From positions 1-64,000 of the forward strand of contig LNFC01000021.1 of NCBI GenBank assembly GCA_001464545.1: a stretch of 64,000 nt of DNA, read 5' to 3'. The notes under the pieces are model-generated. The model saw only the letters and a list, made by a program, of their open reading frames with translations, did not search any database and was not told the DNA's origin. Shown here piece by piece: positions 46,661 to 53,706 of the stretch (within the stretch, counting starts at the first letter, position 1; each line of letters begins with the position of its first letter). The translations under genes and the position numbers were made by a program. The stretch is from Acidobacteria bacterium Ga0077551 (GTDB lineage: Bacteria > Pseudomonadota > Alphaproteobacteria > Caulobacterales > Hyphomonadaceae).

Positions 46661-47251
46661 ATGGCCGACGCCGCGCGCCGCCCGCTCCTTCCCCCGCCGG
46701 GCCTTGCCCCGGAAACCGCCATCAAGCGTCTTGCCGCCGCGCAGACACGGGCCCGGGACGGCCTGTTTGCCACCCTCGCCGAAGAGTGCATGCCGGCCCT
46801 GCGCACCTATGCCCGCAGCCTCACGGGGGACGCAAACCTTGCCGACGACTGCGTGCAGGATGCCTTCGTGCGGGCGCTGGATGCCTTTGCGAGCTACGAT
46901 TCCTCCCGCCCGTTCCGGCCGTGGATCTTCCGTATCCTGCGCAATGAGTGGCTGCAGCGACTGCGCCGCGACCGCCGCCTGACCGACCTGACGGACGACG
47001 CGATCAGCGACCTGCTGGTCGACACCCGCACCCCGGAGGACGCCGCCGAGGCCGCCAGCCTCCTCGCCCACATCGCCCGCCTGCCGCCCGACATGGCCGA
47101 TGCCATCGGCCTCGTTCTCGGCCAGGGCTTCTCCTATGACGAAGCTGCCGCCCTCTGCGCTTGCGCCCCTGGCACCATGAAAAGCCGCGTCAACCGCGCC
47201 CGCGCGATCCTGATGGAACAACTGGAAGAAGACGGCCCGAAAGCCGCGTAG
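46661..47251 (+). CDS. ECF-type RNA polymerase sigma factor
   Basis: A 196-residue sigma-70 family protein with only regions 2 and 4. Region 2: [19 protein letters not shown], and [20 protein letters not shown]. Region 4: [24 protein letters not shown] followed by [17 protein letters not shown]. No anti-sigma factor gene is adjacent, and no receiver domain is fused, so it is not PhyR. Open reading goes back to 46571 across the AT-rich TTAA array, but that segment is plainly promoter-like. ATG 46661 is preferred although no clear ribosome site precedes it. The general-stress sigma EcfG is possible but unsupported, since nepR/phyR are absent. Confidence 0.85.
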
Positions 47252-47290
47252 GGCGGGATTTAACCGGTCGCTCCAAAGCCCCCCGCTTCC

Positions 47291-47305
47291 GAACAAAACA
47301 AGAAT
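47291..47305 (+). promoter_or_regulatory. LexA-like box before uvrB
   Basis: GAAC-N7-GAAT, one mismatch from the alphaproteobacterial SOS box GAAC-N7-GAAC (GTTC-N7-GTTC), 42 nt before the uvrB start. It fits SOS control of uvrB. Confidence 0.45.
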
Positions 47306-47346
47306 ACTCTGGACACCGCCCCCCGCGCCGCCCATATCCTTGGCCT

Positions 47347-49530
<2,184 letters not shown>

Positions 49531-49969: not shown

Positions 49970-50104
49970 TCCGCCTACAGATTATTCTCGCCACGCGCCT
50001 GCCGGCGCGCGGCCTTGATCGGGAAATCGCAGTGCGATTTCTGATCCTCGCAAGTGCACCAATTCCACAACTGTCTTAAAACTGTGAAATTTATCGCGCG
50101 AAAC

Positions 50105-50740
50105 GCGAATCACCCTCTCGACTCACACCAGATTTGGTGAGATCGTTACGTCAAGCCAACGAAATCCCGGCGGGAGACAACCCGCAAAGTGGAGCGAAGG
50201 CGAGCCCATCGCCCCCATGAAGAGGGCCGGGCCAGGAGCAGAGCCGGGAGACCGGGCGCGCGAAAGGCCAGGCAGGATGCACGGGATAAAAACAGGCGAT
50301 GGCCCATGGCAGCGGGAGCTAGACCCGCGAGATGGGAGCCGTACGCCGTAACCGGGGCGCAAACCCGAACTACGGTGGCCAAGAGCCCGAAAGCTCCATC
50401 AGGGAGTACGAAGAAGGACTGTGCCCGCAAGGGCGCGGAACGGACGAGTGTGACCAACGGTGAAGCGCCAGAGATGGACGGGAGGAGCGGCCAAAGTCCT
50501 TGAAACTGCAAGCGGCCCCCCGGCTGCGCGCGAGACAAGGCACCGCAAAAGGAGCGTGCGCCTGCCAGGGCGAACGTTTAGATGCGGAAGGGTGATGGAA
50601 GGGCCGCGAAAGTGGGCCGGAAAAAAACCCGGTGTCTCCGAAGAGCGTCTCCGAGTGCTAGCACTAGTAATCGGTAGCCCGATTCGAAACACCATGGAAG
50701 GCGCGGCGCCCCTCAAAAGGCACCGCGCCTTTCTTCGTTG
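50105..50740 (+). ncRNA. large structured RNA candidate, unassigned
   Basis: About 0.63 kb with no credible protein on either strand but dense local pairing, GA-rich loops and a terminal intrinsic terminator. Hairpins seen: CACCA/TGGTG at 50126-50139; GCGGG/CCCGC at 50170-50185; GGCGA/TCGCC at 50199-50213; a composite arm CCCAT 50303-50307 with ATGGG 50332-50336 enclosing a second GCGGG/CCCGC hairpin (50312-50328); CCGTA/TACGG (50346-50375) enclosing CGGG/CCCG; GAGC/GCTC at 50383-50396; a 6-bp stem with a GCAA tetraloop at 50421-50436; and ATCGG/CCGAT at 50670-50683. I found none of the signatures of RNase P, tmRNA, SRP RNA or group II domain V. The 5' end is a guess. A known family that I fail to recall is possible. 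Confidence 0.55.
50698..50737 (+). terminator. intrinsic terminator of the large RNA
   Basis: A 9-bp outer stem (50698-50706 with 50723-50731, arms AAGGCGCGG and CCGCGCCTT) and an inner GCC/GGC pair (50708-50710 with 50719-50721), followed by TCTTCGTTG. It reads in the plus direction and gives the structured region its own 3' end. Confidence 0.8.
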
Positions 50741-50848
50741 TGGAAAAGAATTCGCAGAGCGAATTTCCGAACTCGCGAGGACAAGCGATTGAACTGCAAT
50801 CGCCCGAGAGAGGCCGCGGGCCGGGAGGCGCGTGGCGCCAAAGAAACA

Positions 50849-50871
50849 CCCCCGGCGCGGAACGCCGGGGG
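50849..50871 (-). terminator. terminator after the EF-hand gene
   Basis: A 9-bp stem CCCCCGGCG/CGCCGGGGG with a 5-nt loop. On the minus strand it is followed by TGTTTCTTTGG. It lies 28 nt after the EF-hand stop. Confidence 0.75.
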
Positions 50872-50898
50872 CTTCGGTCAGGATGGGTCTTCAGGGCG

Positions 50899-51189
50899 TC
50901 AGTAGCTCGCCTTGTCGCCGTCCTTCTTCTTGTCGGCCTTGGCCGCCTTGGCGGCCTTCCAGGCGTCGTGTTCGGCGGCGCTGATGTCGCCGCTCCCGTC
51001 GGTGTCATACTTCGCGAACTTCTCGGCCGTCATTTCCGGCTTGGTGGCCTGGATTTCGGCCAGCGTGACGCCGCCGCTGGAATCAGCGTCGAGATCCGCG
51101 AACGTCTTCTTGGCGCCGTGATGGTCGGCCAGCGCCGCCGGGGCGGCGAAGGCGGCAGCGAGAGCTGCGATGGCAATAAGTCTCTTCAT
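50899..51189 (-). CDS. secreted EF-hand calcium-binding protein
   Basis: A 96-residue periplasmic protein. The signal peptide (MKRLIAIAALAAAFAAPAALA) is followed by two EF-hand loops, DLDADSSGGVTLAE and KYDTDGSGDISAAE, both with the acidic residues at loop positions 1, 3, 5 and 12. A Lys-rich tail follows (KAAKADKKKDGDK). GGAGGAG lies 7 nt before the ATG at 51189; reading back to 51252 is not needed. It presumably binds calcium in the envelope; the physiological role is not known for this kind of small CREC-like protein. Confidence 0.88.
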   Translation of the reverse strand: MKRLIAIAALAAAFAAPAALADHHGAKKTFADLDADSSGGVTLAEIQATKPEMTAEKFAKYDTDGSGDISAAEHDAWKAAKAAKADKKKDGDKASY

Positions 51190-51334
51190 GGAAATACTCC
51201 TCCGTTTTGTTGAACCGGCCAGCCGCTTATCAGCGTGTGCCGGATCTTTCACTTAGGAAGCAGGCGCCGGTTTGCTTCCAACATGACGAAGTTTTTATGC
51301 GGGCGGGCATGGCGGGGTCCCGCGCAACAAAAAA

Positions 51335-52939: not shown

Positions 52940-53169
52940 GGCTACTGCACATAAGCGATGCAGCCTGCACTTGCGAGGGGCATCGCGGGGTCAATACGGC
53001 TCCACAAGATATAGAACCCTGTGGAAAGCGGGGCCTGCATGTTGTGTTTCATTACGCCTCTGATACGACATCTAGGTGTCAGAACAGTTGGCGCGTACAG
53101 CCACAACAACATATAGGGGTAAGCGCACCCAGCGACGGGACGCGCCCTGAGATGCGGGAGACTTCCAAC
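52940..53169. promoter_or_regulatory. divergent promoter region ABC permease / gcrA
   Basis: 230 nt. An imperfect palindrome GACATCTAGGTGTC lies at 53067-53080. A possible plus-strand promoter follows, with TTGGCG near 53088 and CATATA 16 nt further. I saw no GANTC site or CtrA box in this stretch. Confidence 0.45.
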
Positions 53170-53706
53170 ATGTCGTGGAACGACGAGCGGGTGAACACCC
53201 TCAAGAAACTCTGGGCCGAGGGCCATTCGGCCTCCCAGATCGCCAAGCAGCTGGGCGGGGTCACCCGCAATGCGGTGATCGGCAAGGTCCACCGCCTCGG
53301 CCTGTCCGGCCGCGCCACCCCGTCCCGCCCCGTCAAGCGCCCGCCGCGCCTGGCCCGGCCGAAGCCCCGTTTCCTGGCGGATGGCACGATCGCCGCTGTC
53401 GCTGCCGCGCCGGCCGCCCCCGCGCCGAGCCTGCCGGTGCCCGCCCTCGCCATCGAGCGCGTCTCGGCGATCAAGCCCCTGCCCCCGCTGCTGGTGGACG
53501 GCACGCCGGCGACGATCCTCACGCTGCGCGACACGATGTGCAAATGGCCGATCGGCGACCCGGCCGACCCGAAATTCGCCTTCTGCGGCCGCAAGTCCGA
53601 CTGCGGCCCCTATTGCGCCGAACACGCCCAGGTCGCCTTCCAGCCGGCCCGCAAGCGCGAAGCCCGCAAATCCGAATACGACTACGTCCGGCGGATTGCC
53701 GGCTAA
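53170..53706 (+). CDS. gcrA: cell-cycle regulator GcrA
   Basis: A 178-residue GcrA-family protein. The N-terminal domain MSWNDERVNTLKKLWAEGHS, then SASQIAKQLGGVTRNAVIGK, is the DNA-binding helix-turn-helix module that reads GANTC methylation by CcrM. A Pro/Ala-rich linker (about 60-105) and a C-terminal sigma-70-contact domain with MCKWPIGDP and FCGRKSDCGPYC follow. The start at ATG 53170 matches the family, and GGGAG lies 8 nt upstream. GcrA is found in alphaproteobacteria and is a strong taxonomic marker here. Confidence 0.97.
   Translation: MSWNDERVNTLKKLWAEGHSASQIAKQLGGVTRNAVIGKVHRLGLSGRATPSRPVKRPPRLARPKPRFLADGTIAAVAAAPAAPAPSLPVPALAIERVSAIKPLPPLLVDGTPATILTLRDTMCKWPIGDPADPKFAFCGRKSDCGPYCAEHAQVAFQPARKREARKSEYDYVRRIAG

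Follow-up and report, generated by a model that had tools for sequence, protein, structure and literature searches.

A new family of large structured RNAs in Hyphomonadaceae with a promoter predicted to respond to GcrA and CcrM

Introduction

To our knowledge, few bacterial RNAs are both longer than 300 nt and endowed with a complex, conserved fold. The best-known of those of unknown function, OLE, GOLLD and ROOL, were described from Bacillota and phages. The locus considered here raises the question of whether an alphaproteobacterial chromosome encodes a further RNA of this kind. A preliminary description of the window (the whole stretch of DNA that was analysed, 64,000 nt) proposed that positions 50105-50740 hold a structured RNA; the stretch, its hairpins and its terminator are present as described there. 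If the reading developed below is true, a large structured RNA is tied to the epigenetic cell-cycle clock. The RNA is chromosomal and belongs to an alphaproteobacterial family, its promoter predicts when it is made, and its presence in cultured Hyphomonas species makes deletion, RNA-seq and structure work feasible.

The locus

The neighbours of the stretch are uvrB (47161-49530, Pfam UvrB), a 100-aa ORF without a Pfam match, and an EF-hand gene on the minus strand (50899-51252). The gcrA gene (53044-53706; Pfam GcrA, 166.5 bits) is located 2.3 kb downstream of the RNA. The source genome (3.08 Mb in 25 contigs) carries a single copy of the RNA gene, whose parts are listed in Table 1.

Table 1. 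Features of the RNA gene and its promoter in the window.
Feature	Positions	Strand	Basis or remark
Promoter	50062-50146		comparison of upstream regions
Inverted element ATTCCACA-N13-TGTGAAAT	50062..50090	.	CACA/TGTG pair
GANTC site GAATC in promoter	50107..50111	.	promoter reading
-35 element CTCGACTC with GACTC 50120-50124	50117..50124	+	43 upstream regions compared
-10 element GATCGT	50141..50146	+	position and spacing across 43 upstream regions, by eye
RNA gene	50152..50738	+	about 587 nt; both ends inferred from promoter and terminator positions
Hairpin 1, GCGGG-AGACAA-CCCGC	50170..50185	+	helix 4 of A3: 3/6 pairs with both-side changes
Conserved core domain (models R1, R2)	50203..50381	+	145.6 bits with R2
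Closing helix 50206-50213/50295-50302 and branched arm inside	50206..50302	+	covariation
Hairpin A, GCGGG-AGCUAGA-CCCGC, self-complementary loop	50312..50328	+	stem pairs covary
Hairpin ending core	50345..50376	+	helix 10 of A5: 6/6 pairs with both-side changes
Variable middle region	50382..50554	+	poorly alignable across genus
3' domain with GAGUGCUAGCAC and GAUUCGA	50555..50693	+	conserved in Hyphomonas
Intrinsic terminator	50695..50738	+	stem 50695-50734

Two short palindromes of the AATCGC/GCGATT type (50023-50041 and 50749-50767), each followed by CCTCGC or GCGAGGA, flank the RNA gene and are the sole two matches to this pattern in the 64 kb. They possibly belong to an intergenic repeat family, and a stretch similar to them is also found upstream of the RNA in locus L007. 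In addition, the interval from the RNA gene to the EF-hand gene contains a site resembling an intrinsic terminator, with an 11-pair stem (50848-50872), on the minus strand, which is also that of the EF-hand gene.

Distribution of the RNA

BLASTN detected a match in 37 of 42 Hyphomonas genomes, one of which (G062) contributes only a contig-end fragment of the 3' domain and has no match with the covariance model R2. With this model, derived from 43 members, the RNA was detected in 56 of 105 Hyphomonadaceae genomes, the positives being distributed over four of ten genera (g1, g14, g19 and g20). The other 49 family genomes gave no R2 match, and when 26 of them, complete genomes included, were searched again with laxer filters, only hits at chance level were returned (E 0.37 and 0.52). 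Because these 49 genomes are without a match, the RNA is either dispensable or diverged beyond reach.

Among 398 genomes of the order, 53 have an R2 match, 52 of them within the family; the sole match outside it is restricted to 33 positions (E 0.0096) and was taken as chance. Draws of 385 class and 398 phylum genomes, which include a few family members, yielded matches in Hyphomonas only, apart from two weak ones in the class set (E 0.009 and 0.07) that were likewise attributed to chance, as were R1 matches in two genomes of family f4 (E 0.07 and 0.08). A pattern search of a genome collection returned 23 loci, 14 of which carry the RNA and nine of which were taken as chance. As far as searched, the RNA thus appears to be restricted to one family and patchy within it. 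This agrees with the earlier proposal of an RNA specific to an alphaproteobacterial group, homologues being found across Hyphomonadaceae and nothing convincing outside.

Weak second matches within the family (E 0.2-10) were set aside. The same applies to a second weak R2 match (G315:C3:185245-185435; 27 bits, E 0.0024) in G315, a genome with a strong copy, which is either a chance match or a diverged paralogue.

A conserved fold

For 50105-50745, the predicted folding energy of the plus strand is -271.5 kcal/mol (z -3.15), a value equalled by none of 20 shuffles, while the minus strand has a z of -1.58, with one of 20 shuffles as good. The fold was then assessed by comparison of homologues. 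For the core, alignment A5 comprises 43 of the 53 non-duplicate homologous loci, close relatives being omitted, and A6 comprises 56. In A5, whose 43 members represent four genera, 92.8% of cells are paired and 35 of 47 pairs have changes on both sides. Covariation in this model-fitted alignment amounts to 0.457, as compared with at most 0.097 for slid pairings, and it is present in all 11 core helices except one. The tip of the hairpin that ends the core hardly varies, three of the four pairs of helix 11 being invariant.

Covariation was also evaluated against a tree-preserving null, in which inferred substitutions were replayed along the tree at random columns by means of our own script, in the manner of R-scape. 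Because A5 and A6 are model-fitted alignments, the test was repeated on an alignment built from sequence only. In this two-set test, 16 of the 47 core pairs are significant, and 13 of 47 in the sequence-only alignment, with 0 or 1 among the slid controls, which places the covariation, a check suggested in the preliminary description, above phylogenetic expectation. In a stricter all-pairs test, only four of the 47 structure pairs stand out in A5, together with one pair outside the structure, and four of 47 in the sequence-only alignment, with none outside. Taken together, the comparisons establish the homology of these loci and a conserved fold of the predicted RNA.

Beyond the core, the 5' and 3' domains were aligned within Hyphomonas using MAFFT. 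Changes on both sides affect 22 of 65 pairs in the 5' domain (A3; covariation 0.249, at most 0.055 for slid pairings) and 18 of 49 in the 3' domain (A1; 0.270, at most 0.099), the structures having been derived from the same alignments on which the pairs were counted, and the count for A3 including a doubtful helix in the promoter (50119-50125/50138-50145). Against the tree-preserving null, six of 65 pairs are significant in A3 and two of 49 in A1. The GCAA-loop hairpin mentioned in the preliminary description (at about 50424-50435) belongs to the middle region, which is variable. No 3' domain can be recognised in genus g20, and the RNA of this genus would have a length of only 307-336 nt. Where the 3' domain is most conserved, it contains a GANTC site (GATTC, 50681-50685) that is invariant in 25 of 25 A1 sequences; this site reflects either a constraint on the RNA or a methylation site.

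Extent of the transcript and its neighbours

The 5' end of the transcript probably lies near 50152, because a common layout of -35 element, spacer and -10 element can be read across 43 upstream regions. The earlier 5' limit of 50105 was about 45 nt too early, positions 50105-50150 being read as promoter, and the richness of this promoter in GANTC had been overlooked. As these positions are read as promoter, the first helix (50119-50125/50138-50145) is probably promoter DNA and not RNA.

At the other end, the terminator stem has 15 pairs, 13 of which are standard pairs in the window, and 10 of which have changes on both sides among 25 homologues. The stem of the strong plus-strand terminator that had been described is therefore real and kept in homologues, but its U tract is poor in the window (TTTCTTCGTT). 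By script, 39 of 43 members were found to have a terminator at the corresponding position, L073 being scored on a stem that is short and partial. Among the four members in which the script found none, L084 ends at a contig end and L070 shows a terminator by eye. The predicted lengths in those 39 members range from 307 to 598 nt, so that the family spans about 310-600 nt, perhaps with longer forms in some.

The neighbours of the RNA gene depend on the genus. Both g20 loci share with the window an upstream uvrB gene (UvrB in L077 was read by eye), and g19 shares with it a downstream ABC-2 permease gene and gcrA (the permease in L086 by eye). Since these neighbours are common to the window, g20 (uvrB) and g19 (permease and gcrA), the uvrB/gcrA neighbourhood looks like the ancestral place of the gene. 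In g14, the neighbours differ and, as judged by eye, include hisI-like, HTH and dcd-like genes. In L010, a single-contig Hyphomonas genome, the RNA directly precedes rnpB (RNase P RNA at L010:782-1157, minus strand). The notion of a stand-alone unit has thus held, given the own promoter, the terminator in 39 of 43 members and the differing neighbours between genera. As promoter and terminator are kept while the gene neighbours change, the RNA would most likely act in trans.

This change of place between genera is also what the RNA of a mobile element or phage might show. Such an origin is hardly credible, considering that BLASTN searches of phage and plasmid collections gave no match, that viral contigs contained no match to a single exact pattern for the Hyphomonas-type 3' motif, that the source genome has a single copy, and that the uvrB or gcrA neighbourhood is shared in three genera.

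It is similarly most improbable that the locus encodes a small protein, or that it is part of a neighbouring gene as its leader or 3' UTR. The preliminary description had found no protein with a ribosome site on either strand. In favour of such a reading, ORFs of 104 aa (plus) and 130 aa (minus) do exist, and 21 of the 103 gap runs of the 3' domain have a length divisible by three. Relative to the window sequence, however, the length of gap runs is not a multiple of three for 121 of 122 runs in the 5' domain (A3) and for 82 of the 103 runs in A1, the alignment of the 3' domain. Moreover, in the 15 members examined, the longest ORFs occur on differing strands and at differing positions. Because the gaps break any frame, the alignments demonstrate that no reading frame is conserved in the predicted RNA family. 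The own promoter and terminator and the differing neighbours speak against a leader or 3' UTR.

Comparison with known RNA families

The Rfam check named in the preliminary description gave no match at gathering score anywhere in the 64 kb window and none on the RNA in 20 homologous loci (21 loci in all), although the same 20-locus scan did detect neighbouring genes for RNase P (307 bits) and for tRNAs. RF00010 (RNase P RNA) does not match the RNA, next to which L010 has a separate rnpB, and neither does RF01849 (tmRNA), the actual tmRNA of the source genome being encoded at G000:C19 (245 bits). The models of OLE, GOLLD and ROOL were presumably all among the 4227 Rfam models scanned; none reached its gathering score on the RNA in the 21 loci. 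Seven sub-threshold matches, all far below gathering scores, were taken as chance. The highest-scoring, to the CC1840 sRNA (RF01521), has 21.8 bits for a threshold of 50 and is confined to the terminator region.

Size and complexity would be compatible with divergence from one of the known large RNAs (RNase P, tmRNA, OLE, GOLLD, ROOL, group I or group II intron). This explanation is nevertheless very unlikely in view of the failure to obtain a gathering-score match in any of the 21 loci and of the existence of RNase P (L010) and tmRNA (source genome) as separate genes. No account of the RNA was found among the open-licence PMC papers listed. It represents a new family, while large structured non-coding RNAs as a kind have precedents.

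Resemblances to the known RNAs are of a general nature. OLE of Bacillota, according to the portion of its literature considered, is also about 600 nt long and ornate, with an unknown biochemical function; the RNA described here differs by the lack of an Rfam match, by its phylum and by its GANTC promoter. GOLLD and ROOL are similarly large and ornate. In the excerpts considered, their genes are assigned to phages or prophages and in many cases lie close to tRNA islands, whereas the 64 kb window has no tRNA, and the RNA matches neither in Rfam.

A GANTC-rich promoter

Bacteria related to the present host time genes to the cell cycle through CcrM methylation sites. The 43 upstream regions have a common layout, with a -35 element (C/A)TCGACTC, a spacer of about 16-18 and then CATNCT, CATCAT or GATCGT. 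In members other than the window, the -10 element takes forms such as CATACT, CATTCT and CATCAT; it is weak in Hyphomonas. All members but L077 (42 of 43) have GACTC at the position of the -35 element. The layout is that of a predicted sigma70-type promoter with a CcrM site (GANTC) in its -35 element.

The 43 promoters contain 97 GANTC sites in 3,440 bases (28.2/kb), about 18-fold over the upstream flanks (74 in 46,237 bases, 1.6/kb), the downstream flanks having 50 in 36,556 (1.4/kb). When only 21 mutually dissimilar 80-base promoter zones are considered, 49 sites remain in 1,680 bases, or about 2.3 per zone, as compared with about 0.12 predicted from flank density. GANTC is rare in the window at large, with 98 sites (1.5/kb) as against the 3.2 predicted by composition.

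The source genome also encodes a RAMA-domain protein (66.8 bits); of 14 control genomes, only Caulobacter has a match. As the RAMA domain presumably marks CcrM, we take this protein to be CcrM-like, and the host would thus possess both GcrA and a CcrM-like protein.

Passages of the literature on GcrA indicate that CcrM methylation at GANTC enhances its binding (PMC3667746), that its footprint on ctrAP1 covers -35 to -10 (PMC3667746), and that GANTC changes crippled four of the five promoters named in a figure legend (PMC3667746). GcrA-dependent activation has been tied, in the part of the source considered, to an extended motif, YGAKTCG (PMC7987155, citing Haakonsen 2015). Its reverse complement, CGAMTCR, fits 29 of the 43 promoters, including CGACTCA at the -35 element of the window, and does not fit the other 14.

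Alternatively, GACTC might simply be the housekeeping -35 element of this lineage, with GAC overlapping the TTGAC consensus, and the RNA would then be constitutive. The 14 of 43 promoters that fail the extended GcrA motif are in keeping with this possibility. It is nonetheless unlikely, firstly because of the additional GANTC sites beside GACTC in the dissimilar promoter zones, and secondly because GACTC is absent upstream of tmRNA, rnpB (L010) and seven tRNAs, regions whose start sites are not mapped and which hold other GANTC sites: one GATTC before tmRNA, GAATC inside a neighbouring tRNA in two of the seven tRNA regions, and one site before rnpB that is part of the 3' domain of the RNA itself.

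Further upstream, an inverted CACA/TGTG pair is found in 34 of 43 members and is absent from 46,237 bases of upstream flank; with its AT flanks, the inverted element has no second occurrence in the 64 kb window. Its sequence in several members of other genera is TATCCACAG...CTGTGGA. The DnaA box is TTATCCACA. The element in those members resembles two head-to-head DnaA boxes, and that DnaA binds there is a guess.

Possible mode of action

We consider it probable that the locus encodes a new Hyphomonadaceae family of large structured non-coding RNA, with its own promoter carrying GANTC in the -35 element and its own terminator, which is timed by GcrA and CcrM and acts in trans. GcrA bound at methylated GANTC would turn the gene on, perhaps assisted by DnaA at the upstream inverted boxes. 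As the timing by GcrA/CcrM is deduced from the promoter, expression would be confined to part of the cell cycle. The trans action of the RNA would then depend on its folded core, by itself or in partnership with a protein, and not on a short antisense seed. Both the timing and the activity are predictions from sequence comparison.

Control of non-coding RNAs by GcrA and CcrM has precedents at the level of prediction, since Caulobacter ncRNAs such as R0116 are listed, in the portion of the source considered, as having promoters with CcrM sites and GcrA peaks (PMC5988900). These RNAs were compared by sequence with ours only through Rfam's Caulobacter families. Another non-coding RNA of a relative that is tied to cell-cycle regulators is CcnA of Caulobacter crescentus. 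The passages considered describe it as an RNA of 182 nt with CtrA boxes, located at the replication origin (PMC8959179), whereas the RNA described here has 310-600 nt and GANTC sites.

The main functional rival to action through the core is that the RNA base-pairs with mRNAs in the manner of CcnA, its fold merely presenting a seed. CcnA acts on the 5' UTRs of gcrA and ctrA according to the same passages (PMC8959179), gcrA lies 2.3 kb downstream of the RNA, and hairpins with conserved loops exist. Set against this are the covariation across all 11 core helices but one, which exceeds the needs of a seed, and the smaller size and CtrA boxes of CcnA. Here, full CtrA boxes occur in only one of 43 promoters and half sites in two. 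Base-pairing is therefore unlikely, albeit an explanation to be taken seriously.

Action through the folded core might involve self-assembly. Of the 56 members, 47 have the central palindrome CUAG in the loop of hairpin A, four (two pairs of relatives) have UCGA and two have CCGG; the remaining three (L028, L075 and L080) lack one, L080 having UCGA outside the loop. In the 3' hairpin, CUAG is switched to CAUG in five members (L007, L025, L026, L027 and L029). These same five rule out an intramolecular kissing interaction between hairpin A and the 3' hairpin, since a CUAG loop and a CAUG loop, of which each of them has one, are unable to pair with one another. By a rough estimate, the palindromic outcome of three of the six independent departures is not beyond chance. 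That the RNA, switched on once per cell cycle through GcrA/CcrM-linked DNA methylation, assembles into dimers or larger oligomers via symmetric kissing loops is consequently a speculative and rather doubtful proposal. Symmetric kissing loops and palindrome switching have been reported for OLE and GOLLD, in the part of the source considered (PMC12286853), and the self-complementary loop of hairpin A offers a possible parallel, at the level of the loop sequence.
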